From: Rhodophyticola porphyridii
GTDB lineage: Bacteria; Pseudomonadota; Alphaproteobacteria; Rhodobacterales; Rhodobacteraceae
DNA length: 64,000 nt
Direction: 5' to 3'
Assembly: GCF_003688285.1 (NCBI RefSeq)
Contig: NZ_RCNT01000002.1
Coordinates: 248,001-312,000 of the forward strand
Position numbers and translations under genes: made by a program. Shown in pieces: positions 3,790 through 52,974 of this stretch. The notes under the pieces were generated by a model, which saw only the letters and a list, made by a program, of their open reading frames with translations, was not told the DNA's origin and did not search any database. How positions within the stretch are numbered: position 1 is the first letter of the stretch; every line of letters begins with the position of its first letter.

Positions 3790-6351
3790 TCAGGGCAATT
3801 CGTCATCCCCGGCCCTGCATTCCGCGGTGGAGGCAGGGGCCCTGTCCTGCACAGCCAGCTGGGCCGCGGCCAACTTGGCCACCGGCACCCGGTAAGGAGA
3901 GCAGGACACATAGTCGAACCCCGCCTTCCGCGAGAAGGCGATCGAGTCTGGGTGCCCGCCATGTTCGCCGCAGATCGACAGGATCAGCCCGGGTCTGGCC
4001 GCGCGGCCACGCTCCGCCCCGAGATGCAGCAATTCGCCCACGCCTTCGGTATCGAGCCGCTGGAACGGGTCTTCGGGAAACACGCCCTGCTGCACATAGG
4101 TGGACATGAAGCGCCCGGCATCGTCGCGGCTGAGCCCGTAGGTCATCTGCGTCAGGTCATTGGTGCCGAAGGACAGGAAGGCGCAGCTTTCGGCGATCTC
4201 TCCGGCGCGGAGGGCTGCGCGCGGCGTTTCGACCATCACGCCGAGCCGGTAATCGAAGGCCTTGCCGCTTTCGGCCCGGACCGCGGAGGCCACGGCATCG
4301 ACCCGGGCCTTGACCAGCTCCACCTCCCGCTTCGCGCTGACCAGCGGGATCATGATCTCGGGCACGACCGGCGCGCCGCCCTCGCTGGCCGCGATCGTCG
4401 CCTCGAAAATCGCGCGGGCTTGCATATCGTAAATCTCGGGCACCGTAATTCCCAGCCTGACGCCGCGCATACCCAGCATCGGGTTGAATTCCTGCAAGCT
4501 TTCGATGCGGGAGGCGACGCGGCTGACCGGCATGTCCATCGCCTCGGCCATGGCGCGGATGCCGTCACGTTCATTGGGCAGGAACTCGTGCAGCGGCGGG
4601 TCGAACAGGCGAATGCAGACAGGCTGCCCCTGCATCAGTTCGAAAAGCTCCGTGAAGTCATCGCGCTGCATGGGCAAAAGCCGGTCAAGCGCGGCGGTCC
4701 GGTCGCCCGGCTCCTCGGCGAAGATCATCTCCCGCATCACGGTCAGGCGGATCGGATCGAAGAACATGTGTTCGGTCCGGCAGAGCCCGATCCCGTCCAC
4801 ACCGAAGCGTTGCGCCATGGTGGCGTCTTCCACGGTGTCGGCATTGGCCCGGATGCCGATATCGCGGGCGGCATCGGCCCAGTCCATCAGCTTGGCGAAG
4901 GCGCCGCCCAAGGCCGGTTCGATCATAGCGGCCACCCCGGCCAGAACCTCGCCCGACGAGCCATCGACGGTGATCACGTCGCCTTCGTGAAACACCTTTC
5001 GGCCCGGAACGGTCAGGGTTTTCTTGCGCGCGTTCAGCTGCAACTGCGTGGCGCCCGACACGCAGGGCAGGCCCAGACCGCGGGCGATCACCGCCGCGTG
5101 GCTGGTCATGCCGCCGCGTTCGGTCAGGATCGCGTGGGCCGCATGCATCCCGCGGATATCCTCGGGGCTGGTTTCGCGGCGCACGAGGATACAGGCCTCG
5201 CCCTGCGACGCGGCGCTTTGCGCGGCCTCCGCGGTAAAGACGATCTTGCCCGAGGCCGCACCCGGTGCGGCCGCGATGCCCCTGGTCAGCACGTCGCGGG
5301 CGGCCCTGGCATCCACCTGCCGGTGCAGCAACTGGTTCAGCGTGAAGGGAGGGATCCGGGTCATGGCCTCTTCCCGGGAGATCACGCCATCCTCGGCCAG
5401 TGCGACGGCAATCGCCACCTCGGCCCGGGCCGACCGGGTGGAGCGCACGGCGTCAAGAATGAACAGCTCGCCATTCATCAGCGTGAACTCGATCTGCATT
5501 TCCTCCCGCAGGCGCGTCCGCATCAGGGCCGCCGCCTTGCGCAGCGCCTCCACCTGCTCGGGACAGATATCCTCCAGCGCCGGGCCGCGGGCATCGCTTT
5601 CGATGAACTGCGCATCCTGTTCGTTCAGGGCCGCGCGCCCCTGACCCTGCGGCAGGAAACGCCCGGTGATCTGCGGCGCGCCCCGGTCGACCGAAACGAA
5701 TTGCACCACGCCCGATCCGCTGGCGCCCTGACCGATGCCAAGCGCCATCTGCTGCACCACGAGACCGAGGCCCGCATCCGCCGGCGCACCCTGCGCCTGC
5801 CGCAGCAGCCGTGCGGTGGTGCCTTCCCAGGCTCGCGCCATGGAGCGCAGAACCTCGGTCAACTGCACGGCGGGATCTTGCGGAAACGGCTCCTCCATCT
5901 CGTCTTCGAAATAGGTCTTGGCCAGCCGCGGGGTGATCGGCCCTTCGAAGACATCCGCGTCGAGACGCAGAACATCGACCGCGTAGGCCTTGATAAAGCT
6001 CAGATAAAGCGCATCTGCCGCATCCGGCCCGTGCAGTTTGGCCAGCCGGCTGGCCACCGCGTCATTCATGCCCACATTCAGGATCGTCCCGGGGCCGCCC
6101 CAATCCGCGGCCTGGCTGGAGGAGCGGACCGAGACCAGCGCGCCCTCGCCGAACACACCCAGAAGTGCGGCCATGTTCGGGATCTTGCCCTTGGCGATCT
6201 GGCGTACCGTGTCGAAGGACAAGGCCACCGAAAGCGGTACCGGCAGATCCAGCCGCGCCAGCCGTTGCAGGCATTTGGCCCGGCTGCCATGGCGCGTGGC
6301 CAGAATATCCGCCGTCGGCGTGATTTCCGTGAAATCGGGGGTCGTCAACAT
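3790..6351 (-). CDS. Pyruvate, phosphate dikinase-like PEP-utilising protein
   Basis: An 853-residue protein with the whole PPDK layout. The swivelling phosphohistidine domain is intact (GGMTSHAAVIARGLGLPC, His418). So is the C-terminal PEP/pyruvate barrel: GLCRTEHMFFDP, IRLFDPPLHEFLPNE, MVETPRAALRAGEIA, FGTNDLTQMTYG, and SICGEHGG with catalytic Cys794. The N-terminal ATP-grasp half is eroded: the GGKGANL loop is replaced by TRHGSRAKCLQRL, and the usual LQTRNGKRT strand reads LDAVRSTRSA. PPDK interconverts PEP with pyruvate using ATP and Pi; whether this copy still uses ATP is doubtful. The start at 6351 was preferred over 6381 because AAGGA lies upstream. It follows glyS by about 145 bases. 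Confidence 0.75.
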   Translation of the reverse strand: MLTTPDFTEITPTADILATRHGSRAKCLQRLARLDLPVPLSVALSFDTVRQIAKGKIPNMAALLGVFGEGALVSVRSSSQAADWGGPGTILNVGMNDAVASRLAKLHGPDAADALYLSFIKAYAVDVLRLDADVFEGPITPRLAKTYFEDEMEEPFPQDPAVQLTEVLRSMARAWEGTTARLLRQAQGAPADAGLGLVVQQMALGIGQGASGSGVVQFVSVDRGAPQITGRFLPQGQGRAALNEQDAQFIESDARGPALEDICPEQVEALRKAAALMRTRLREEMQIEFTLMNGELFILDAVRSTRSARAEVAIAVALAEDGVISREEAMTRIPPFTLNQLLHRQVDARAARDVLTRGIAAAPGAASGKIVFTAEAAQSAASQGEACILVRRETSPEDIRGMHAAHAILTERGGMTSHAAVIARGLGLPCVSGATQLQLNARKKTLTVPGRKVFHEGDVITVDGSSGEVLAGVAAMIEPALGGAFAKLMDWADAARDIGIRANADTVEDATMAQRFGVDGIGLCRTEHMFFDPIRLTVMREMIFAEEPGDRTAALDRLLPMQRDDFTELFELMQGQPVCIRLFDPPLHEFLPNERDGIRAMAEAMDMPVSRVASRIESLQEFNPMLGMRGVRLGITVPEIYDMQARAIFEATIAASEGGAPVVPEIMIPLVSAKREVELVKARVDAVASAVRAESGKAFDYRLGVMVETPRAALRAGEIAESCAFLSFGTNDLTQMTYGLSRDDAGRFMSTYVQQGVFPEDPFQRLDTEGVGELLHLGAERGRAARPGLILSICGEHGGHPDSIAFSRKAGFDYVSCSPYRVPVAKLAAAQLAVQDRAPASTAECRAGDDELP

Positions 6352-6496: not shown

Positions 6497-8752
6497 TCAG
6501 CCCTCGATCCGGCCCAGATCGGCGATCTGGGTGCAGGTCTCCACGATCCGGTGCAGCAGGTTCAGCCGGTTGCGCCGGACGATCTGGCTGTCGGCATTTA
6601 CCTTCACCGCCTCGAAAAACGCGTCGATGGGCCCGCGCAGATGGGCCATTTCGGTCATCGCAGCGGCAAAATCCTCGGCCTTCAGCGCCGGTCCGATCGC
6701 GCCCTCGGCGCGTTCCAGCGCCGCGAAAAGCGCCCGCTCTTCCTCGGTCTCGGCGAATTTCACGTCGGCGCCGTAGCGATACTCCACCCCGTCGGCAGCT
6801 TCGGCCTGGGCCAGAATGTTCGCCGCGCGCTTGTAGCCCTGCAGCAGGTTTTCACCGTCTTCGGTGACCAGAAAGCCGCCAAGGGCGCGCGCGCGCATCA
6901 CGATGAGCGACAGATCGTCATGGCCGGGCATCGCGAGGCAGGCGTCGATCACGTCATGGCGGAGACCCTCGCCCTTCAGATGCACCTTCAGCCGGTCGTG
7001 GAAAAACGCCAGCAGGTCGGTGGACAGATCCGGCACCAGATCGCCCACGCTGCGCAGAAGGGAGCCTTCGCCGGTCTGTGGCTGGTCCTTGCCGTTTTTG
7101 CGGATCGCCTCCATCACGGTTTCGAAGGCCGCGCCGAAGACGCCATGATCGGCGATTTCCTCCAGCACCTCCTCCAGTGCCGCGATCTCCCCCTCCTTGG
7201 CCTCGGCCCGGTTCAGGGCGATCTTGTGTTTGACAAGCTGGCTGTCGATGAAGCGGTCCAGATTGACCCGGAGCCCGTTGCCGAGCAGGATCCGGATGAC
7301 GCCGAGCGCGGCCCGCCTGAGCGCATAGGGATCCTTGGAGCCGGTGGGCTTTTCGTCGATCGCCCAGAAGCCGGTCAGCGTGTCGAGCTTGTCGGCAAGG
7401 GCGACGGTCACAGACAGGGGCGCATCGGGCACCGCATCGGAAGGGCCGAGGGGCGCGTAATGATCCTGGGCAACGGCGGCAATTTCGGCCGGGAAGCCCG
7501 CGGCTTCGGCGTAGTATCGCCCCATAAGCCCTTGAAGTTCCGGGAATTCATAGACCATCTCCGACGACAGATCGAGCTTTGCGATCCGCGCGGCCCGGTC
7601 CGCGTCATCGGGGTTGGTGCCCAGAACCGGCGCAATTTCGCGGGCCAGCCGGGCGATCCGGTCGATCCGCTCGGCCTGCGTCCCAAGGCGCGCGTGGAAG
7701 GTGACGTTGCGCAGCTGATCGGCCCATGGCTCCATCCCGTCCCGCGCGATGCGCAGGTCGTTCTCCCAGAAGAACCGGGCATCCGACAGCCGCGCGGACA
7801 GCACCTTTTCGTTGCCCGCCAGAATGGTCGCGCCGTGATCCGCCGTTTCCCGGTTCGCGACAGTGATGAACCGCTCGATCCGGCCGGTTTTCGGATTGCG
7901 GACCGAGAAGAATTTCTGATGTTCGCGCATCGAGGTTTGCAGGACCTCCGGCGGAAGGTCCAGAAACGCCGTCCCGATCCTGCCCATCAGCACGACCGGC
8001 CATTCCACGAGGCCCGAAACCTCCGCCAGAAGCCCCTTGTCCGCGACCGGCTCCAGGCCCGCCGCAAAGGCCAGATTGCCCGCATCCTCCCAGATATGCG
8101 CGGCGCGTTCCTCGGCCGAGAGCACGACGAATGCGCGCTTCAGCTTCGTCTCGTAATCCGCGAAGGAAGAAACGGAAAACGGCTCTGGCGCCATGAACCG
8201 GTGGCCTTCGGTGTGGTTGCCCGCAACGATCCCGTCGACATCGAACGGCACGATTTCGGCGCCATCCTCTGCGCTCAGCACACAGACGATCCGGTGAAGC
8301 GGCCGCACCCAGCGGAGCGCGCCCGCGCCCCAGCGCATGGATTTGGGCCAGGGAAAGCTGCGGATCACCTGCGGGATCGCCTCGGCGATGATCTCGGCGG
8401 CGGGACGGCCCTCTTTCACGACCTGCGCGACATAGAACCGGCCCTTCTTCTCCTCGCGCAGCTCCAGCGCGTCCTTGGTGGTGCCGGTGGCGCGCAGGAA
8501 CCCCTCCAGCGCCTTTTCGGGCGCGTCGGCCCGCGGCCCGCGGCGCTCTTCGCGGAACGTGGGCGAGGCCTCGGCCAGCCCTTCAACCGTCAGCACCAGC
8601 CGGCGCGGCGTCGAAAAGGCGCCCGCACTGGCATAGGTCAGCCCGGCCTCGACCAGCTCATCGGTTGCGAGACGCTTAAGGTCATCCGCCGCGCGGGCCT
8701 GCATGCGGGCGGGGATTTCCTCGGAGAACAATTCCAGCAGAAGATCGGGCAT
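6497..8752 (-). CDS. glyS: Glycyl-tRNA synthetase beta subunit
   Basis: The tetrameric bacterial glycyl-tRNA synthetase charges tRNA-Gly; the beta chain supplies tRNA binding. The 751-residue product starts MPDLLLELFSEEIPARMQ, the hallmark N-terminus, and contains FSTPRRL, SMRWGAGALRWVRPLH, LSARLSDARFFWENDL, TFHARLGTQAERIDRI and AEAAGFPAEIAAVAQDHYAP. The anticodon-binding-like tail ends with ADLGRIEG. It belongs to the same leftward group as glyQ at 10034, separated by the FkbM methyltransferase and a small membrane protein, an order typical of this bacterial group except for the methyltransferase. Confidence 0.97.
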   Translation of the reverse strand: MPDLLLELFSEEIPARMQARAADDLKRLATDELVEAGLTYASAGAFSTPRRLVLTVEGLAEASPTFREERRGPRADAPEKALEGFLRATGTTKDALELREEKKGRFYVAQVVKEGRPAAEIIAEAIPQVIRSFPWPKSMRWGAGALRWVRPLHRIVCVLSAEDGAEIVPFDVDGIVAGNHTEGHRFMAPEPFSVSSFADYETKLKRAFVVLSAEERAAHIWEDAGNLAFAAGLEPVADKGLLAEVSGLVEWPVVLMGRIGTAFLDLPPEVLQTSMREHQKFFSVRNPKTGRIERFITVANRETADHGATILAGNEKVLSARLSDARFFWENDLRIARDGMEPWADQLRNVTFHARLGTQAERIDRIARLAREIAPVLGTNPDDADRAARIAKLDLSSEMVYEFPELQGLMGRYYAEAAGFPAEIAAVAQDHYAPLGPSDAVPDAPLSVTVALADKLDTLTGFWAIDEKPTGSKDPYALRRAALGVIRILLGNGLRVNLDRFIDSQLVKHKIALNRAEAKEGEIAALEEVLEEIADHGVFGAAFETVMEAIRKNGKDQPQTGEGSLLRSVGDLVPDLSTDLLAFFHDRLKVHLKGEGLRHDVIDACLAMPGHDDLSLIVMRARALGGFLVTEDGENLLQGYKRAANILAQAEAADGVEYRYGADVKFAETEEERALFAALERAEGAIGPALKAEDFAAAMTEMAHLRGPIDAFFEAVKVNADSQIVRRNRLNLLHRIVETCTQIADLGRIEG

Positions 8753-8845
8753 CGGATCGGTCCTGTGAAGCGTATCGCGCGGAACGCGCGGTGAGTGGCG
8801 TCGTGCGCGGTCTATCGCGCGGTGTGTCGTTTGGGCAAGGCAGGC

Positions 8846-9307
8846 TTATTCGAGCGTACCGTTCAGCTGATGCCAGGCGAAGCCGCGCCCGTCGGGATAG
8901 GCAGCGATGATACGGTCCACCCCGCGGGCGATCTCGTGGCGCGAGAGCACGGCGATCGCCTCGCCCGCCTCAATCGCCTCGCCGATACGCACGGCATTGT
9001 AGCACTCGAACCAGGCCGGCGCGATCAGCGGCGCGGGATCGGTCGGGGGCGCGGCCTCGGCCAGCAGCGCAAGCGCGGCCTCGTCGACGGTGAAACAGGC
9101 CCGGAATCTCAGGGGCGAACTGTCGGCGTCGATACCGTCGAAATCGGTGACATCCAGCGGGATCACCGTGCCATCTGCCAGCGTCACCGGCAGCGCGGAC
9201 AGCGCCACCGGCTCGTAATAGGCGCGGGTCTGGAAGTACCACAGAAAGGCGCCGAAGACCGCTGTGGTGACGATGATGGCAATCGCCAACCATCTGCCGC
9301 TGGTCAT
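8846..9307 (-). CDS. Small membrane-anchored protein between glyQ and glyS
   Basis: A 153-residue protein with one N-terminal hydrophobic helix (LAIAIIVTTAVFGAFLWYF) and a soluble domain probably facing the periplasm. The soluble part has two cysteines (FRACFTVDEAAL and WFECYNAV) and ends GRGFAWHQLNGTLE. I do not recognise an enzymatic family. A protein of this size and look sits beside the glyQS genes in many Rhodobacterales. Only four bases separate it from the FkbM gene upstream and 93 from glyS downstream, so it is probably co-transcribed. No function can be assigned. Confidence 0.75.
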   Translation of the reverse strand: MTSGRWLAIAIIVTTAVFGAFLWYFQTRAYYEPVALSALPVTLADGTVIPLDVTDFDGIDADSSPLRFRACFTVDEAALALLAEAAPPTDPAPLIAPAWFECYNAVRIGEAIEAGEAIAVLSRHEIARGVDRIIAAYPDGRGFAWHQLNGTLE

Positions 9308-43827: not shown

Positions 43828-44385
43828 ATGCGACAGGCAGGTCGGATATTGGAGGAGATGCTGGTTGCCCGCGCGCAGCAGGGTGACCGGGCGGCCCTTT
43901 CGCAGATCGCCGATCTGCGCGGCCCGCGCCTGTTGGCCCATGCGGTGCGGTTGCTGGGCGACCGGGAGATGGCGCGCGATGTGGTGCAGGAGGCCTGGGT
44001 GGAGATCCTGCGCGGCCTGCCGCGACTGCGCGACCCGGTGGCTTTTCCGGCCTGGGCCACGCGGATCGTGACGCGCAGGGTGGCCCGGCAGATCAGGCGC
44101 CAGATCGCCTCCCGCGAGACATTGCGCGCTGCCGCGGCCGAACTGCCGGTGGCAACGCCCGAGGCCGGCCCCGATGCGTCGGATGCCAGGGCGGTGCGCG
44201 GGGCGGTTGCCGCCCTGCCGCCGGATCATGCCGCCACGGTTGCGCTGTTCTATTTGGAAGACATGAGCGTGGCCGAGGTCGCCGTGGCGCTGGATATCCC
44301 GCATGGCACCGTCAAATCCCGGCTTATGCATGCGCGCTTGAAACTGAGAGAGGCGTTGAAAGGAGACTGCGATGAGCAAGCTTGA
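43828..44385 (+). CDS. ECF-type RNA polymerase sigma factor
   Basis: A 185-residue sigma-70-family protein with regions 2 and 4 only. Region 2 is LLAHAVRLLGDREMARDVVQEAWVEI with the core-binding DVVQEAW, and region 4 has ALPPDHAATVALFYLEDMSVAEVAVALDIPHGTVKSRLMHARLKLRE (helix-turn-helix). An alternative ATG at 43858 would trim ten residues. Its 3' end overlaps the next gene by 14 bases, so the small membrane protein there is its likely partner. The regulon cannot be read from the window. Confidence 0.9.
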   Translation: MRQAGRILEEMLVARAQQGDRAALSQIADLRGPRLLAHAVRLLGDREMARDVVQEAWVEILRGLPRLRDPVAFPAWATRIVTRRVARQIRRQIASRETLRAAAAELPVATPEAGPDASDARAVRGAVAALPPDHAATVALFYLEDMSVAEVAVALDIPHGTVKSRLMHARLKLREALKGDCDEQA

Positions 44386-44734
44386 CCAACTGATCGAAGA
44401 GGCTCTGAGAGCCGAGGATCGCGCGATCCTCGACGCCACCGAAGAGCAGGGCTGGTTCCAGCTTGGGCTGGCGCAGTTCCGGGGCAAACTGGGCTGGGTC
44501 ACTTGGGTGGTCATGGTGATCCAGATCATCCTGTTCGCCCTGGGCACCTATTGCGCGATCCGGTTCTTCGGGGCCGCCGATGCACTTGGCGCTCTGAGAT
44601 GGGGCCTGCCGGGTGCCGTATTACTGCTGATGGCGTTGCAGATGAAGCTGAGCCTGATGCCGCAGATTCAGGCGGACCGGATCCTGCGCGAGTTGAAACG
44701 GACACAGCTGATGCTGGCAGAACGGCACCGTTGA
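44372..44734 (+). CDS. Small membrane protein coupled to the ECF sigma factor
   Basis: A 120-residue protein with a soluble N-terminus (MSKLDQLIEEALRAEDRAIL), two hydrophobic helices (VTWVVMVIQIILFALGTYCAI; LRWGLPGAVLLLMALQMKL) and a basic C-terminal helix. It lacks the HxxxCxxC zinc motif of classical anti-sigma factors. The 14-base overlap with the sigma gene suggests translational coupling and perhaps a non-classical anti-sigma role. The family is not recognised with confidence. Confidence 0.75.
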   Translation: MSKLDQLIEEALRAEDRAILDATEEQGWFQLGLAQFRGKLGWVTWVVMVIQIILFALGTYCAIRFFGAADALGALRWGLPGAVLLLMALQMKLSLMPQIQADRILRELKRTQLMLAERHR

Positions 44735-45377: not shown

Positions 45378-46700
45378 ATGACCCAACGCTCCGCGCCCCA
45401 GCGCCGCCACGCGCTTACCGGAAGCCGCATCCGGGAACGGCGTACGGTGATGGGGATCAGACAAAGCGATCTGGCCCGTGCGGTGGGCATCTCGGCCAGC
45501 TACCTGAACCTGATCGAGCATAACCGCCGCCGGATCGGCGGCAAGCTTCTGGTCGATCTGGCCCGGGAACTGGAGGTGGAGCCGACCGCGCTGAGCGAGG
45601 GGGCGGATGCCTCGCTGTTCGATGCGTTGCAGGGGGCGGCGGGGGAAAGCCCGCCCGCCTTCGGCCCGGCGCCCGAGACCGGCCGGATCGATGAACTGGC
45701 GGGTCGCTTCCCGGGATGGGCCGGGCTGATCGCGTCACAGCACAAACGCATCGCGGGCCTTGAGGGGCTGGTCGACGGGCTGCATGACCGGCTGGCCCAT
45801 GATCCGGTTCTGGCTGAGGCAATGCACGAACTTTTGTCGACCGTCGCGGCGATCCGCTCGACCGCGGATATTCTGGTGCGCGAGCCGGATATAGAGCCGC
45901 AATGGCGCGGGCGTTTTCACCGCAACCTGCATGAAGAGGCGGAAAGACTGTCGGCGCGGGCCACGGCGATGCTGTCGCATTTCGAAAGTCAGGGCGGGCG
46001 GCAGGGTGCGCCATCCACGCCGCAGGAAACGGTGGAGGCGTTTTTCGACGCGATGGACCATCACTTCCCGATGATCGAGGAGGCCGGCCCCGGGACGATC
46101 GGCGCGATCCTTGTCGGCGTGGCGGGAATGGAGGATCCCGCGACGCGGACGCTGGCCGAACGCCTGCTGCGCAATTACGCCGAGGATGCCGCGCGCCTGC
46201 CGCTGAAACCGTTTCTTGCCGCAGCACTGGACAGCGGTTTCGAGCCCGAGCCGCTTTTGCCGATGGCCGGCGGTGACGTGGCGCTGGTTCTGCGGCGTCT
46301 GGCAAGCCTGCCGCGGTCCAAGGGTGCGCCGCCGTTCGGGCTGGCGGTCTGCGACGCGGCGGGCGCGCTGATCTTCCGCCGCCGGATCGGGGCTTTTTCG
46401 ATTCCGCGTTTTGGGGCCGGATGCCCGCTCTGGCCGCTCTACCGGGCGTTGAGCAAACCGATGGTGCCCGAGGCAAGCCTGCTGGATCTGCCGAACGGCA
46501 CCACCTTCAGCGCCTGGTCCATTTGCCAGCCGGCCCACGCGGCGGGGTTCGGGGCGGAGCCCGTGATGCGGGCGACGATGCTGCTGCGCCCGGTGGAGGA
46601 AAAGCGGGCCGGGTCTGGTGGGCAGCCCGTCGGACCGGGCTGCGCCGTTTGCCCGCGAGAGGATTGCACGGCCCGGCGCATGGACAGTCTTGTCGGATGA
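45378..46700 (+). CDS. ScfR/RamB-like short-chain acyl-CoA regulator (XRE HTH)
   Basis: A 440-residue regulator. Residues about 16-70 are an XRE-type HTH (GSRIRERRTVMGIRQSDLARAVGISASYLNLIEHNRRRIGG...). A long helical middle follows, and the C-terminal domain ends with a cysteine cluster (GCAVCPREDCTARR) typical of the short-chain fatty acyl-CoA regulator family. Relatives such as RamB and PccR control acetate or propionate assimilation genes. It is directly upstream of a receiver protein and a symporter-histidine kinase, so the locus probably senses a small carboxylate. The ligand is not known from sequence. Confidence 0.82.
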   Translation: MTQRSAPQRRHALTGSRIRERRTVMGIRQSDLARAVGISASYLNLIEHNRRRIGGKLLVDLARELEVEPTALSEGADASLFDALQGAAGESPPAFGPAPETGRIDELAGRFPGWAGLIASQHKRIAGLEGLVDGLHDRLAHDPVLAEAMHELLSTVAAIRSTADILVREPDIEPQWRGRFHRNLHEEAERLSARATAMLSHFESQGGRQGAPSTPQETVEAFFDAMDHHFPMIEEAGPGTIGAILVGVAGMEDPATRTLAERLLRNYAEDAARLPLKPFLAAALDSGFEPEPLLPMAGGDVALVLRRLASLPRSKGAPPFGLAVCDAAGALIFRRRIGAFSIPRFGAGCPLWPLYRALSKPMVPEASLLDLPNGTTFSAWSICQPAHAAGFGAEPVMRATMLLRPVEEKRAGSGGQPVGPGCAVCPREDCTARRMDSLVG

Positions 46701-46781: not shown

Positions 46782-47189
46782 TTGGGCACGCGGGTTTTGC
46801 TGGTCGAGGATGAGGCCAATATTCTGGAAGCCATAAGCTTTATCCTGTCCCGCGACGGGTGGGAGGTGCATGGTCATGGCAATGGCGCAACAGCGTTGGA
46901 CGCGGTGGCGCGCCTGACGCCGGACGTAGTGGTGCTGGATGTGATGTTGCCCGGCCGCTCCGGTCTCGACATCCTGCGTGATCTGCGGAACGCCTCGGAG
47001 ACGCGGACCCTTCCAGTCCTGATGCTGACCGCCAAGGGGCAGGCGAAGGATCGCGATCTGGCTCTGTCGCTCGGCGCGAATGCCTATCTGACCAAGCCCT
47101 TTTCGAACGCGGAGATGGTGGAGACCTTGCGCGATGTCGCCCGTGGCGTCAGTCTGAACGGCGCCGGGTTGCCCGAACAAGGGTCATGA
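46782..47189 (+). CDS. Single-domain CheY-like response regulator
   Basis: A 135-residue receiver domain with no output domain: VLLVEDEANILEAI, phospho-acceptor Asp53 in VVVLDVMLPGRSG, MLTAKGQ and the conserved Lys in YLTKPFSNAEMV. The start codon is TTG, supported by GGAGGAG six bases upstream. The stop overlaps the next ATG by four bases. It is most likely the phosphorylation partner of the kinase at 47499. Lacking a DNA-binding domain, it must act by protein contact. Confidence 0.9.
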   Translation: MGTRVLLVEDEANILEAISFILSRDGWEVHGHGNGATALDAVARLTPDVVVLDVMLPGRSGLDILRDLRNASETRTLPVLMLTAKGQAKDRDLALSLGANAYLTKPFSNAEMVETLRDVARGVSLNGAGLPEQGS

Positions 47190-47497
47190 ACCGCCATGGC
47201 AAATCCACCCCGAGAGGGACCCGCGACACGATGGCCAAACGTGTGTTTCTTGAGCGCCGGACCTATCGGCGGAACCGGTTGCAGGACGCGGCCAAGCTCT
47301 TGCCCGTGCTGGGGGCGTTCCTGTTCTTCGGGCCGGTGTTCATTCTGACGACCGATGCCGGTGTCGGGGGTGCGACGGCGGGGTGGCTGGTGTACTTCCT
47401 GGGTGTCTGGCTGGCCCTGATCGTGGTGGCCGCGGCGCTGGCCCGGGCGCTTGACCGGATCACGCCGAGCGACCCGGATCAGCCGGGCGAGCGCTAG
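47186..47497 (+). CDS. Two-helix membrane protein preceding the symporter-kinase
   Basis: A 103-residue protein with a basic N-terminus (KRVFLERRTYRRNRLQDAA) and two hydrophobic helices (LLPVLGAFLFFGPVFILTT; GGATAGWLVYFLGVWLALIVV). Its size and topology resemble the DUF485/DUF4212 small subunits that accompany sodium/solute symporters such as ActP, here next to a symporter fused to a kinase. The start overlaps the receiver stop, and the kinase ATG begins one base after this stop. Assignment as a symporter accessory subunit is inference. Confidence 0.75.
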   Translation: MNRHGKSTPRGTRDTMAKRVFLERRTYRRNRLQDAAKLLPVLGAFLFFGPVFILTTDAGVGGATAGWLVYFLGVWLALIVVAAALARALDRITPSDPDQPGER

Positions 47498-47498
47498 G

Positions 47499-50180
47499 AT
47501 GCTGTCCTTCGACGGGTTGGTCGCGGTCTGCGTCCTCTATGTCGCGGGCCTTTTCTGGGTGGCGTTTCTGGCCGAAAAACGTGCCGCCGAGGGCAAGGCC
47601 CGCTGGCTCAGCTCCCCACTTGTCTACACGCTCAGCCTGTCGATCTACACCACCGCATGGACATTTTACGGCGCCGTCGGCTCGGCGGCGCGGTCGGGTC
47701 TGGAATTCATGACGATCTATCTCGGTCCGACACTGGTGTTCATTGGCTGGTTCTGGCTGCTGCGGAAAATGGTGCGCATCGGCCGCGCGCAGCGGATCAC
47801 CTCGATCGCGGACATGATTTCCAGCCGTTACGGAAAATCCGGCGGTCTGGCGGCGATGGTGACGATCCTGGCCGTGATCGGGACGACGCCCTACATCGCG
47901 CTGCAACTGCAATCGGTCACGCTGTCCTTTTCGGTCTTTGCGCGCCCCGGCGCGCTTGGCGCGCCGGATACGGAAAGCACGGCCGTCTGGGTTGCGGGGG
48001 GGCTGGCGCTTTTCACCATCGTCTTCGGCACCCGGTCGCTGGATGTGAACGAGCGCCACCCCGGTCTGGTCTCGGCCATCGCGCTGGAATCGATCGTAAA
48101 GTTGTTCGCGTTGCTGGCGGTTGGCGGCTTTGTCGTCTGGGGGCTGGCGGACGGACCGCGTGACGTTCTGCTGCGGATCGAGGAGAGCCCGATCGCCACC
48201 TGGACATCGAACGGCGCGCGGTGGGTCGGGCTGACGGTGCTGAGCGGCGCGGCGATCCTGTGCCTGCCGCGGATGTTTCAGGTGATGGTCGTCGAAAACG
48301 CCGATGAACGGCACCTGGCCACCGCCAGTTGGGCCTTTCCGCTTTATCTGCTGCTGATGAGCGTCTTCGTGATCCCGATCGCGGTGGTCGGTCTGCACAT
48401 GATGCCCGAGGGTGCGAACCCAGATCTTTTCATGCTGACCTTGCCCTTGGCCGCGGGGCAGGACGGGCTTGCGCTGTTTGCGTTTCTGGGCGGCTTCTCC
48501 GCCGCGACATCGATGGTGATCATTGCCGCGCTGGCACTTAGCACGATGGTGTCGAACCATATCATCGTGCCGCTCTGGATGCGCGCCACGAAGGGTGAAA
48601 ACCCCATGACGGGCGACATGCGCCGCGTGGCGCTGATGGCCCGCCGTCTGAGCATTGCCGGTGTTCTGACGCTGGGGCTCGTCTATTACCGCATGTCCGG
48701 CGGGACGGAGGCGCTCGCCTCGATCGGGTTGATCGCCTTTCTGGGGGTAGCGCAGGTACTGCCGGCCCTCTTGGGCGGTATTTTCTGGCGCGGGGCGACA
48801 CGGGCCGGGGCGGCGGCCGGGATCGCGCTAGGCTTCCTGATATGGGGCTGGGTGTTGCTGGTTCCGAATGCGGCGACCGCGGGTCTGATGCAGGGTGTTC
48901 TGGAAAACGGGCCCTTCGGTCTGACATGGCTCAGACCGGCCACGCCCTTGGGGCTGGACGGGGCAGACCCGCTTCTGACCGCGATGGTCTTGTCGCTCGG
49001 GGTGAACAGTTTTGCCTTCGTGCTGGTGTCGCTGTTCACGTTCCCCAGCCCGATGGAACGTCTGATGGGCGCGCAATTCGTGAATGTCTACGAGCATTCG
49101 CGCACGCCGCTGGCATGGAAGGGCAGCGCCGGGACGGCGGATGACCTGTTGATCATGGCGCAGCGGATTCTGGGTGCAGGCCGCGCCGCGCGCCTGTTCC
49201 GCGACGCCGCCGCCGCGCAGGGCCGCGAGGCGCGCCTGCCCGAACCGACACCCGATTTTCTTGAAAAGCTGGAGCGCGAACTCGCAGGCTCCGTCGGCGC
49301 GGCGACGGCCAATGCGATGGTGGGCCAGATCACCGGCGGCGCCAGCGTGTCGGTGCGCGATCTGCTCGCGGTGGCCGATGAAACCGCGCAGATGATGGAG
49401 TATTCCAGCCAGTTGGAGGCGAAATCGGCGGAGCTGGCCCAGACCGCCGCGCGCCTGAGGGAGGCGAACCAGAAACTGACCGAACTGTCGGTGCAGAAAG
49501 ACGCCTTTCTCAGCCAGATCAGCCATGAGTTGCGCACGCCCATGACCTCGATCAGGGCATTTTCCGAGATCCTGATGAAAAGCGAGGATCTGGATGCGGA
49601 GGGGCGGACCCGCTTCAGCCGGATCATCCATGACGAAAGCCTGCGGCTGACGCGGTTGTTGGACGATCTGCTGGATCTGGCCGTGCTGGAAGACGGCCGG
49701 GTGACGCTGAACGAAGGCAACACGATGCTTGGCGATGTGCTGGACCGGGCCGTGAATGCCACCAGCGCGCTGGTGGGCGGCACGCGGCTCAGCATTCTGC
49801 GCACCCGCGCCGATGAGGAGGTGCCGCTCTGGACCGATGCGGACCGTCTGGCGCAGGTGTTCATCAATCTGATCTCGAACGCGCAGAAGTACTGCGACGC
49901 GGCGCAACCGGAATTGCGGATCGAGGTTCTCCGGCTGCCCGGCCGGGTCGAGGTCGAGTTCGCCGATAACGGCGCCGGCGTGGCACCCCGCCAGCAATCG
50001 CTGATCTTCGAGAAATTCGCCCGGGGCGATACGGCGGGCGAGGCCCCCGGGGCGGGTCTCGGCCTTGCGATCAGCCGGGAGATCATGGGCCGTCTGGGCG
50101 GCGGGCTGACCTATGTGCCGGGGCAGGGGGGCGCGCGGTTCCGGGTTCGGCTGCCGGGCCGTGCCCTGCGCGCGGCCTAA
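47499..50180 (+). CDS. Sodium/solute symporter-type sensor histidine kinase
   Basis: An 893-residue membrane kinase. The N-terminal 500 or so residues form a full SSS fold with about 13 helices (SSPLVYTLSLSIYTTAWTFY, RAQRITSIADMISSRYGKSG, ATSMVIIAALALSTMVSNHI). After a linker comes a coiled coil (SQLEAKSAELAQTAARL), the H-box SHELRTPMTSIRAFSEIL with His676, and an HATPase domain (INLISNAQKY, DNGAGVAPRQQSLIFEKF, GAGLGLAISREIMGRLGG). There is no PAS or fused receiver. CrbS and CbrA are known kinases of this architecture that respond to acetate or amino-acid/carbon status. The coupled receiver is at 46782. Confidence 0.92.
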   Translation: MLSFDGLVAVCVLYVAGLFWVAFLAEKRAAEGKARWLSSPLVYTLSLSIYTTAWTFYGAVGSAARSGLEFMTIYLGPTLVFIGWFWLLRKMVRIGRAQRITSIADMISSRYGKSGGLAAMVTILAVIGTTPYIALQLQSVTLSFSVFARPGALGAPDTESTAVWVAGGLALFTIVFGTRSLDVNERHPGLVSAIALESIVKLFALLAVGGFVVWGLADGPRDVLLRIEESPIATWTSNGARWVGLTVLSGAAILCLPRMFQVMVVENADERHLATASWAFPLYLLLMSVFVIPIAVVGLHMMPEGANPDLFMLTLPLAAGQDGLALFAFLGGFSAATSMVIIAALALSTMVSNHIIVPLWMRATKGENPMTGDMRRVALMARRLSIAGVLTLGLVYYRMSGGTEALASIGLIAFLGVAQVLPALLGGIFWRGATRAGAAAGIALGFLIWGWVLLVPNAATAGLMQGVLENGPFGLTWLRPATPLGLDGADPLLTAMVLSLGVNSFAFVLVSLFTFPSPMERLMGAQFVNVYEHSRTPLAWKGSAGTADDLLIMAQRILGAGRAARLFRDAAAAQGREARLPEPTPDFLEKLERELAGSVGAATANAMVGQITGGASVSVRDLLAVADETAQMMEYSSQLEAKSAELAQTAARLREANQKLTELSVQKDAFLSQISHELRTPMTSIRAFSEILMKSEDLDAEGRTRFSRIIHDESLRLTRLLDDLLDLAVLEDGRVTLNEGNTMLGDVLDRAVNATSALVGGTRLSILRTRADEEVPLWTDADRLAQVFINLISNAQKYCDAAQPELRIEVLRLPGRVEVEFADNGAGVAPRQQSLIFEKFARGDTAGEAPGAGLGLAISREIMGRLGGGLTYVPGQGGARFRVRLPGRALRAA

Positions 50181-50245
50181 GGGTTTCTTAACCCTGCATG
50201 GGGCATAAAGCCCGCGGGATTTTCCAGATTGAAGGGCCGGCATTC

Positions 50246-51286
50246 ATGGCGGATACCGCCAGCTTATCCGTTCTGCAGCGCATGACCAAACGGGCGCGCG
50301 CCACCCCGGCTGCGGACCGGGGGGCAGGCGCGCGGCGCGCCTTTCAGCGGGCCCTTCGCCGGGCGGGCGCGCCCTTTGCCGGCCTTGTGCCCGAACCGGG
50401 CAGGGACGATGTAAGCTGGTCGCTTCTGATCGGCGATCTTCTGACCGGGTTGCCCGATGGCGGCTTGCTGACCGGTCTGGATGCGCCCCACGGCGCGCGC
50501 GGCCTGTGCCTGTTGCAGCAGCCGGTCGTCGATGCGCTGATCGAGGTGCAGACGACGGGGCGGGTCGATCCGGTGCAGGGCCCCGACCGGCCGTTCACCA
50601 AGATCGACATCGCCCTGACCAAGGATTTCATCGAATTGCTGCTTTCGGCCTTTGCGGCGGAGCTGGACGGGGTTCAGGGCGTCGACTGGCCCCGCCGGAT
50701 GAGCTTTGGCGGTCCGCTGGCCGACCGGCGGCAATTGCCGCTTCTGATGCCCGATGCCGCATATCACCAGTTCGAGGTGGAGCTGAGCCTGGGCGAGGGT
50801 GCGAAAACCGGCAAGGTCTTGCTGATCGTCCCCGCCGGGTCGGGGTCGGCGGCGGCGCAGCAGGCGGCGCGCTCCGCGCTGGACCCGGCGTGGCAGACCG
50901 CCTTTCGTCAGACGATCGTCGGAGCGGAGGTGGATCTTGACGTGATCCTGATGCGCCGGGTGCGCAGCCTGGCCGAGCTGGAGCGTCTCGCGCCCGGAGA
51001 TCTGATCCCGTTCGAGGCCGCCGATCTGGCCAACATCTCTCTTGAAGACCGCAATGGCCGGATCGTCTTGCGGGGCCGTCTGGGCCAGCAAGGCGGCCGG
51101 CGCGCGGTGCGCCTGACAACCGAGCCGGCCACCCGGTCTCCCGGGTCATCCGCCGAGGCCGCGCCACCGCCGGACCCTGCGCCCGCCCCACCCGGTGACG
51201 GGCAGGATCCGGGCATGCCCGAAGCTGCGGGCCGGCAAATCCCCGGCCCTGACGGCTCCGACCCGGCAGCACGCCCCATCGCCTGA
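50246..51286 (+). CDS. FliM/FliN-like (SpoA-domain) protein without flagellar neighbours
   Basis: A 346-residue cytoplasmic protein. The middle resembles FliM (VVDALIEVQTTGRV followed by RPFTKIDIALTKDFIELLLSAFA). Residues about 235-300 form a SpoA domain (VGAEVDLDVILMRRVRSLAELERLAPGDLIPF, LANISLEDRNGRIVLRGRLG). The tail is Pro/Ala-rich and disordered. The N-terminal CheY-binding acidic motif of FliM is not evident. It lies 65 bases after the symporter-kinase gene, with a small AGGGTT/AACCCT hairpin between. Placement beside a CheY-like receiver is suggestive. The exact role is unknown. Confidence 0.75.
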   Translation: MADTASLSVLQRMTKRARATPAADRGAGARRAFQRALRRAGAPFAGLVPEPGRDDVSWSLLIGDLLTGLPDGGLLTGLDAPHGARGLCLLQQPVVDALIEVQTTGRVDPVQGPDRPFTKIDIALTKDFIELLLSAFAAELDGVQGVDWPRRMSFGGPLADRRQLPLLMPDAAYHQFEVELSLGEGAKTGKVLLIVPAGSGSAAAQQAARSALDPAWQTAFRQTIVGAEVDLDVILMRRVRSLAELERLAPGDLIPFEAADLANISLEDRNGRIVLRGRLGQQGGRRAVRLTTEPATRSPGSSAEAAPPPDPAPAPPGDGQDPGMPEAAGRQIPGPDGSDPAARPIA

Positions 51287-51371: not shown

Positions 51372-52145
51372 GTGGCACCGGCATCGTTCAAATCAAGGCT
51401 CGTCTCGGGGGAAGTCCTGGCCGGGACATTTATGAAGACACCCGCCGTCGACGTGATGGAGGTGCTGATGCTCTCCGGTCTCGATTTCGTATGCATCGAT
51501 CAGGAACACGCGCCCTTCGATCGCTGCAGTCTGGGGAATTGTCTGGCAGTGGCGCGCGCGGGCGGCTTTCCGGTTCTGGTTCGGGTGGCCTCATCCGCGC
51601 CGGAGCATATTCTGCAGGCGCTCGATGCGGGCGCCGTGGGTGTCGTGGTGCCGCATGTGATGACCGGGACGGGCGCTGCGAAGATTGCCAAGGCCGCCCG
51701 CTTCGGCCATGGCGGGCGGGGCTATGCGGGCTCCAGCAGATGGGCGGGCTATGGCACCGGCAGCATGGCCAAGCTTTTGTCCCGAAGCGCCGCCGAGACG
51801 GTTGTGATCGCCCAGATCGAAGACCCGGAAGCGGTTGACTGCGCGGATGACATCGCCGCGACCGAGGGGATCGATGCGGTCTTCCTGGGGCCCGCCGATC
51901 TGAGCGTCGCTTACGGAAAAACCAGTCAGGACAGCGCCGAGTTGCGGGCCGCATTCGAAACGGTGGGCCGGGCGGCGCGGACTGCGGGCAAGGGATACAT
52001 GACATTCGTGGCGGATGCGGCGCAGGCCGCGCGCGTAAGCGCCCACGGGGTCAGCGCGTTTTTCATCGCCTCGGAACACGCCTGGATTCTGGCGGGTGCA
52101 CGGGCCGCGGTGACGGGACTCAAGGACATGCAGGAAGGGGAGTGA
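51372..52145 (+). CDS. HpcH/HpaI-type class II aldolase
   Basis: A 257-residue metal-dependent pyruvate aldolase of the 2,4-dihydroxyhept-2-ene-1,7-dioate family. It has [33 protein letters not shown] (with the catalytic His/Glu region), [35 protein letters not shown] with a metal-ligand Glu, and [14 protein letters not shown]. The start is GTG at 51372, with GGAGG seven bases upstream. It lies four bases ahead of the FAH-family gene, so the two are co-transcribed and may act in sequence on an aromatic or sugar-acid breakdown product. The substrate is not determinable. Confidence 0.88.
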
Positions 52146-52149
52146 GTTT

Positions 52150-52974
52150 ATGAAATTCGTGCGCTATGGCGAGGCGGGAGCGGAAAAACCGGGCGTTCTG
52201 GATGCCGAGGGACGGATCCGCGATTTGTCCGGCCAGGTGGCGGATCTGGGCGGCGACGTGTTGACCCGGCTGGACCGGCTCGCTGCCGATGGTCCGGTGG
52301 TCGACGGCATGCCCCGGCTCGGCCCGCCCGTGGCCGGGACCGGCAAGATCGTCTGTATCGGTCTGAACTATGCCGACCATGCCGCGGAAACCGGCGCGAC
52401 CCCACCCCCCGAGCCGCTGATCTTCATGAAGGCGACGTCGGCCATAACGGGTCCGACCGATACGATCTACATTCCCCGCGGATCCGCCAAGACCGATTGG
52501 GAAGTCGAGTTGGGCGTGGTCATCGGCCGGCCCGCCAAACATGTGGACGAGGCCGATGCACTGGCCCATGTCGCGGGCTATGTGGCCGTCAACGATGTGT
52601 CCGAGCGGGACTATCAGAAACACCGGGCAGGCCAGTGGACCAAGGGCAAAAGCTGCGACAGCTTCGCCCCGATCGGCCCATGGCTGGTGACCCCCGACGA
52701 GATCGGCGACCCGCAGACGCTTGGATTGCGCCTGTCGGTAAACGGCGAGTTACGGCAGGACGGCTCGACCCGGCACATGATTTTCGGGGTGGCAAGACTG
52801 ATCTCCTATCTCAGCGGGTTCTTCACGCTCCATCCCGGTGACATCATCGCCACCGGCACGCCGCCGGGTGTTGGCGCGGGCATGTCTCCGCCGCGGTTTC
52901 TGGCTCCCGGCGACGAGGTGGTTCTGGAGATCGACCGCCTTGGCCAGCAGCGGATGCAGGTCGCGCAGGGCTGA
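52150..52974 (+). CDS. Fumarylacetoacetate hydrolase-family protein
   Basis: A 274-residue enzyme of the FAH/HpcE group, which hydrolyses or isomerises beta-dicarbonyl and dienoate acids. The N-terminal domain ([21 protein letters not shown]) precedes the FAH core: [27 protein letters not shown], metal-binding Glu118, Glu120 and Asp149 in [11 protein letters not shown] and [12 protein letters not shown], then [14 protein letters not shown] and [14 protein letters not shown]. Related proteins include acylpyruvases and 2,4-diketo-3-deoxy-sugar-acid hydrolases. The partner aldolase is four bases upstream. A strong terminator lies 95 bases downstream. Confidence 0.9.

Follow-up and report, generated by a model that had tools for sequence, protein, structure and literature searches.

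In the genome of Rhodophyticola porphyridii, a gene for a FliM/FliN-like protein stands directly behind a symporter-type sensor histidine kinase and a stand-alone receiver. What is this protein, and is it the output of the sensor beside it? A sequence-only reading of the 64,000-nucleotide stretch analyzed here (the window) had seen no flagellar gene in sight, and had proposed a nutrient-sensing circuit whose output is a FliM-like protein outside the flagellum. We examined the gene row, the flagellar genes of the same genome, and 198 genomes of the family.

The gene row and its domains

The receiver, small membrane ORF, kinase and FliM-like gene lie in a row, with the coordinates and domains that had been claimed for them (Table 1). 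The receiver matches PF00072 at 93.6 bits and carries this domain alone, confirming that it lacks an output domain. The small protein has two hydrophobic stretches (by inspection), and none of the Pfam and NCBIfam models matches it above cut-off. In the kinase, HisKA and HATPase_c both exceed the Pfam cut-off. Its membrane half gives no Pfam match at E ≤ 1, symporter families included, but over this half a profile built from 12 relatives hits a solved structure, chain 10ed_A ('histidine kinase'), at 1e-87 (profile positions 4–614). Together, these matches describe a histidine kinase joined to a symporter-like membrane half; the general Pfam search lists a STAC linker nowhere in this protein. 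The gene directly after the kinase (ORF 50198–51286) is SpoA/FliM-like, as had been read from the letters: PF01052, the FliM/FliN C-terminal domain, scores 36.9 bits against a cut-off of 23.8. An alignment of relatives suggests that its true start is at 50246, not 50198. The block as first drawn holds for its four genes but stops one short, because the HTH/ScfR gene preceding the receiver is a member of the conserved block.

Table 1. Kinase–fliM region of the window (position 1 is the first nucleotide of the window).
Feature	Position	Strand	Basis
HTH regulator with short-chain fatty acyl-CoA regulator (ScfRs) C-terminal domain	45378..46700	+	PF01381 and PF09856 above cut-off
Stand-alone receiver; acidic pair, D53, T83, K105	46782..47189	+	PF00072
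Small membrane protein; overlaps the receiver stop, ends beside the kinase start	47186..47497	+	ORF
Symporter-type (SLC5-like) sensor histidine kinase	47499..50180	+	HisKA and HATPase_c; start inferred
Conserved fliM upstream element TNAA-N7-(G/T)TAACC; overlaps the kinase stop	50176..50195	+	Profile match
Divergent FliM, the genome's sole FliM candidate	50246..51286	+	PF01052; fold; genome searches; family survey

Upstream of the block, an ECF-type sigma factor is followed by a small membrane protein (43828–44734, by inspection). After fliM, an HpcH/HpaI-type aldolase and then a fumarylacetoacetase-like ORF, the latter named by inspection, occupy 51393–52974. This pair follows fliM at four of five same-genus loci, and the fifth (L005) has only the second ORF; at none of the more distant loci compared does the pair follow fliM.

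Identity of the FliM-like protein

We modelled the FliM-like protein with AF2 on an alignment of 23 relatives (mean pLDDT 77, pTM 0.55); the top Foldseek matches of the model are FliM chains from structures of the flagellar C-ring (E 1.5e-11). The middle domain of this predicted model matches those of solved FliM proteins with TM scores of 0.65–0.75 by target length, reaching 0.75 for the H. pylori FliM of the FliG–FliM complex 4fq0, indicating that a CheC-like middle domain is present. A sequence profile also finds solved FliM chains, at 2e-10 and 4.7e-7. The modelled protein thus matches both FliM domains, the CheC-like middle and the C-terminal SpoA domain, and in this it resembles the FliM of the C-ring. 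It differs in falling under the curated models: the NCBIfam FliM model TIGR01397 gives 27.5 bits, far under its cut-off of 219.6, and the Pfam FliM model PF02154 does not recognize it. The name divergent FliM that we give it therefore rests on fold and genomic role, not on model membership, and its divergence is most likely why the Pfam model misses it. A further difference lies at the N-terminus, where FliM carries a CheY-binding peptide of the EIDALL-like type. The conserved N-terminal segment of the window protein and its relatives is VLxRK-like instead. One of the alignments used omitted L031, L008 and L004 and the fragmentary or odd loci L023, L024, L030 and L032.

The claim that no flagellar gene is in sight does not survive a genome-wide search. 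Searched across the genome, PF01052, PF00771, PF02154 and PF01706 find nothing within the window except fliM itself, but a short FliN lies on contig 1, adjoining ORFs that look by inspection like FliH-like and FliP, with FlhA ~8 kb from FliN on the same contig, other than the window's. FliG is on the window's contig, ~56 kb from the window fliM and past the window end. By this gene content the Rhodophyticola genome appears to be flagellate. PF01052 matches at two places only, this FliN and the window gene, and PF02154 has no match in the genome; the window gene is therefore its only FliM candidate. With a flagellar cluster present and a second FliM absent, a FliM-like protein working outside the flagellum is not what this genome points to. 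The window fliM does depart from a typical C-ring gene in being unlinked from the flagellar cluster and placed behind a sensor-kinase block.

To place this gene in the family, we surveyed the 198 genomes with the divergent FliM profile and the flagellar models. FlhA scores above cut-off (FlhA-positive) in 153 genomes and FliG_C in 169; PF02154 matches 35, of which 34 are above cut-off. The divergent FliM profile matches 172 genomes at E ≤ 0.001, and the best 147 of these, down to 8.7e-35, were taken as strong; the other 25, including G104 (3.5e-33, PF02154-positive), were counted as lacking it. With this division, 127 genomes have strong FliM and FlhA, 20 FliM alone, 26 FlhA alone, and 25 neither. 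Strong divergent FliM is thus present in 127 of the 153 FlhA-positive genomes, and a PF02154-type FliM occurs in 20 of the remaining 26, one of them scoring under the PF02154 cut-off. The two classes nearly partition the FlhA-positive genomes: 115 have the divergent FliM only, 20 the PF02154 type only, 12 both and 6 neither (Fisher 5e-12), which is what one would expect if each class served its own flagellum as FliM. Among the six with neither class, G083 and G084 have no divergent-FliM match whatever, and G067, G088, G123 and G223 have only weak ones. Fourteen genomes combine a PF02154 FliM with a single high-scoring FlhA. Five of them keep a strong divergent FliM, and these five have two FliG matches; the other nine have one or none.

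Because the gene is the sole candidate, has a FliM fold, and belongs to a class that complements the PF02154-type FliM across the survey, we regard it as very probably the flagellar FliM of this organism, strongly diverged and encoded outside the flagellar cluster. Such a FliM would join FliG and FliN in the C-ring, and CheY-type receivers may act on it there. The failure of TIGR01397 and PF02154 to recognize the gene, and its retention in 20 genomes that lack FlhA, tell against this assignment and would also suit a SpoA-domain protein that has nothing to do with the flagellum, in which case another FliM in the genome would still be unrecognized. We judge such an unrelated protein highly improbable: the genome holds no other PF01052 or PF02154 candidate, the structure matches cover both FliM domains, the two FliM classes nearly partition across the family, and in G021 a PF02154-type FliM ~14 kb from FlhA matches the same divergent profile. 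Also counting against a flagellar FliM are the N-terminus, which appears to lack the usual CheY-binding motif, and two published observations. In the available text on Sulfitobacter D7, FliM was not differentially expressed while most flagellar genes were (PMC9873259). In a transposon screen for motility in P. inhibens, 30 of 36 cluster genes were hit and fliM is unlisted in the part of the report that could be consulted (PMC12363192), a result that bears on the question only if P. inhibens carries the gene.

That fliM and fliG can be flagellar genes lying apart from the cluster is already known. In Dinoroseobacter shibae, FliM and FliG are encoded at separate sites, count among the named flagellar genes and are induced with the others (PMC6473078), and in Roseibacterium elongatum neither fliM nor fliG is linked to the flagellar cluster (PMC4149021); from these partial descriptions, the window genome shares the feature. 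The accessible passages of both papers mention no kinase beside fliM, whereas the window fliM has one (PMC6473078, PMC4149021). In a 2025 study devoted to the commonest flagellum of Rhodobacterales, fliG is located outside the cluster, and three orphan flagellar genes are silenced in mutants of the CtrA pathway; in the accessible text of this study, FliM appears only in the reference list (PMC12363192). Our search of the literature, with few subscription papers in reach, found the kinase–fliM neighborhood unreported. FliM2 of Rhodobacter sphaeroides, the subject of a 2007 paper by del Campo, is the FliM that goes with the fla1-type flagellum, as the 2025 study names it, and is a possible orthologue of the window FliM.

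The kinase block and the control of fliM

The neighborhood of kinase and fliM, whose conservation in relatives had been proposed as a check, is real across the family. The kinase family matches 174 of the 198 genomes at E ≤ 1e-150, and fliM lies directly downstream on the same strand in 125 of the 131 genomes where both could be placed, with a median spacing of 106 bases between the two matches; kinase positions cover the best matches, and 17 genomes with FliM but no kinase position stand outside the 131. At named kinase loci, FliM is the neighbor in 74 of 80. We then inspected 40 FliM loci, 20 FlhA-positive and 20 FlhA-less, picked for kinase and FliM being neighbors or nearly so. Upstream, these contain the receiver in 38 (both misses at contig ends), the HTH/ScfR regulator in 37 (two of the three misses at contig ends), and a similar small-protein ORF in 32.

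Does this constant arrangement mean that the symporter kinase phosphorylates the receiver, which then acts on the neighboring FliM? The adjacency in 125 of 131 genomes and the intact phosphorylation residues of the receiver (E9, D10, D53 and K105 identical in 57 of 57 loci) are what such a circuit would show. But the block does not depend on FliM. Among 18 loci from genomes without strong FliM, 16 have no FliM-like gene behind the kinase, and receiver and kinase persist together in all 16. The phosphorylation residues of the receiver are equally conserved at the 39 loci with FliM and the 18 without, the latter including two with a weak FliM-like ORF, and a single position differs between the two sets. 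Conversely, 6 of the 131 genomes have fliM at a place away from the kinase, at least 7 fliM-bearing genomes give no kinase match at 1e-150, and fliM owns a separate upstream element, described below. Since the regulator–receiver–membrane protein–kinase block also stands without FliM, the receiver-to-FliM circuit is unproven, and we consider it unlikely. These observations speak against a dedicated wire, not against co-expression; shared expression or a stable neighborhood is enough to account for the adjacency, and the position of the kinase beside fliM would reflect co-location or co-expression of this kind.

Several individual loci merit description. Weak FliM-like ORFs follow the kinase at L089 (5784–6734, G205) and L084 (5720–6865, G088) and may be stages of decay. 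At L005 (G004, of the window's genus), a transposase-like ORF lies just upstream of fliM and the kinase is absent within 1.5 kb upstream; the FlhA match of this genome is in two pieces, and its FliM frame is open (349 aa). L172, a record titled Enemella evansiae, carries a Rhodobacteraceae kinase and has a contig exactly as long (26343 bases) as contig C37 of the Rhodobacteraceae genome G008, and either the record name looks wrong or the assembly mixed.

By analogy, the block around the kinase resembles the CbrA/CrbS sensors of carbon sources, its small ORF being CbrX-like, and may be a sensor system separate from fliM. As in CbrA, CrbS and RpuS, the symporter-like half is fused to HisKA and HATPase_c, and the small membrane ORF just upstream of the kinase is comparable to CbrX in position and size, as far as the accessible text describes it (PMC6591292). 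The block is unlike these systems in that the kinase has beside it a receiver alone in place of a DNA-binding regulator, though a partner elsewhere is possible, and in that a ScfR-type regulator precedes it.

The gap between kinase and fliM holds a conserved layout, TNAA-N7-(G/T)TAACC. Within the 160 bases that follow the kinase, 66 of 115 loci with FliM contain the core (G/T)TAACC, as do 2 of 22 without (Fisher 3e-5), and the full layout is found in 35 of 115 (0.09 expected from shuffles) and 1 of 22; the 22 FliM-less kinases count one locus twice (L087 and L100, same contig) and exclude L084 and L089, with their weak FliM-like ORFs. At loci with FliM, none of 111 regulator genes is followed by the core, and 3 of 113 receiver genes are. 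Thus fliM has its own conserved upstream element, tied to the presence of FliM. The window site is the best profile match in the window, at 19.3 bits against 11.2 for the runner-up, and was itself among the sites used to build the profile. In 38-kb stretches surrounding FlhA in eight genomes, matches to the profile do not consistently outnumber those in shuffles, and around fliG in 20 loci its best score is 15.4, none being near the fliM scores.

In layout the element resembles the full CtrA site TTAA-N7-TTAA, as given in the accessible part of the source (PMC6180460), although the strict form is not conserved. The window's one match to the strict site (at most one mismatch) lies exactly in the gap; ~1 match per window is expected by chance, and the strict site was rejected as a conserved feature at 3 of 21 flagellate and 3 of 20 FlhA-less loci. 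Because of this, control of fliM by CtrA is something we infer; the element may be a CtrA-type promoter site tying fliM to flagellar expression.

FliG and FliM in genomes without FlhA

Although a non-flagellar FliM-like protein is not indicated in the window genome, 20 of the 45 FlhA-less relatives keep a strong divergent FliM, 18 of them with FliG. FliM and FliG are present together in 18 of these 45 genomes, both absent in 22, and found singly in five (FliM only 2, FliG only 3; Fisher 1.2e-7). The three FliG-only genomes are G104, which has a PF02154-type FliM, G225, which is 64% complete, and G185, which has a weak FlhA match. The PF01052 search covered 43 of the 45 genomes; each of the 20 with FliM has exactly one match, fliM itself, so FliN was not found in them. 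The FliG ORFs are open and full-length in 11 of 11 fetched FlhA-less genomes, and 37–56% identical to the FliG of the window genome. FlhA status was determined for 50 of the 80 named loci, and seven of these genomes lack FlhA: Marivivens sp., Shimia abyssi, Brevirhabdus sp., Aliiroseovarius subalbicans, Roseovarius pacificus, R. litorisediminis and R. nubinhibens. In all seven, the FliM frame is open beside the kinase. The core of the upstream element is found at similar frequency in FlhA-less (13/20) and FlhA-positive (11/21) loci.

We compared substitution rates in fliM between genome pairs. Between G159 and the genome carrying L156, both Marivivens and both without FlhA, dN is 0.050 and dS 0.303, a ratio of 0.16; this is the one close pair lacking FlhA on both sides, and both genomes are small (a 2.8 Mb MAG, 95% complete, and a 2.5 Mb MAG). 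Across 12 computable pairs dN/dS ranges from 0.05 to 0.39, with dS mostly above 1 in the wide pairs and three or more pairs not computable. A Paradonghicola pair was ruled out as FlhA-less, the second genome having FlhA. The log-identity ratio of FliM to kinase is 3.31 in FlhA-less and 3.01 in FlhA-positive genomes, a small difference in the direction of relaxation, from pairs that are not independent. In G174 (L047) the FliM frame is interrupted by a stop, possibly a stage of decay, and in G028 and G167 the divergent FliM match is split. In FlhA-less genomes fliM and fliG are mostly intact, and fliM is under purifying selection in one tested lineage. At L174 (G000; 4338–5417 and 7702–9000), fliG lies near a well-conserved adenylosuccinate lyase-like gene, named by inspection, a homologue of which is near fliG in 18 of 19 other loci.

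Two explanations can be given for this retention: fliG and fliM are unlinked remnants that are slowly decaying, or FliG and FliM truly have a second role. In the latter case the pair would serve as the flagellar switch and also as a flagellum-independent module, for example a receiver-regulated scaffold, and both would be kept after loss of the flagellum. The both-or-neither pattern, the mostly open frames and the one low dN/dS favor a second role, as far as sequences can tell; the single PF01052 gene of the 20 genomes, the full-length FliG ORFs, the intact FliM ORFs of the seven named genomes, and the upstream core in 13 of 20 FlhA-less loci point the same way. But fliM and fliG both lie outside the main cluster, so that one cluster deletion would spare both, and a shared age since that loss would also yield the both-or-neither pattern. 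The selection estimate comes from a single close pair of small genomes, G174 has an interrupted frame, many genomes are drafts, and the flagellar markers behind the pattern are FlhA, joined in the first survey by the FliM/FliN domain. A dual use of the FliM–FliG pair is, on balance, a tentative reading, and it is doubtful, if possible, that the Rhodobacteraceae maintain this pair for a flagellum-independent function where FlhA and FliN have been lost. Retention of FliG and FliM without a flagellum was unreported in the literature searched, again with few subscription papers in reach; a second role would be a novel reading, and one we hold to be the less probable.

The divergent FliM family probably supplies the FliM of many genera, and its upstream element and metabolic-sensor neighborhood are leads on how fliM is controlled. 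If the second role is real, a piece of the rotary switch would function as an independent module. The FliG–FliM pair of FlhA-less genomes makes it testable whether a partial flagellar switch can work without a flagellum.
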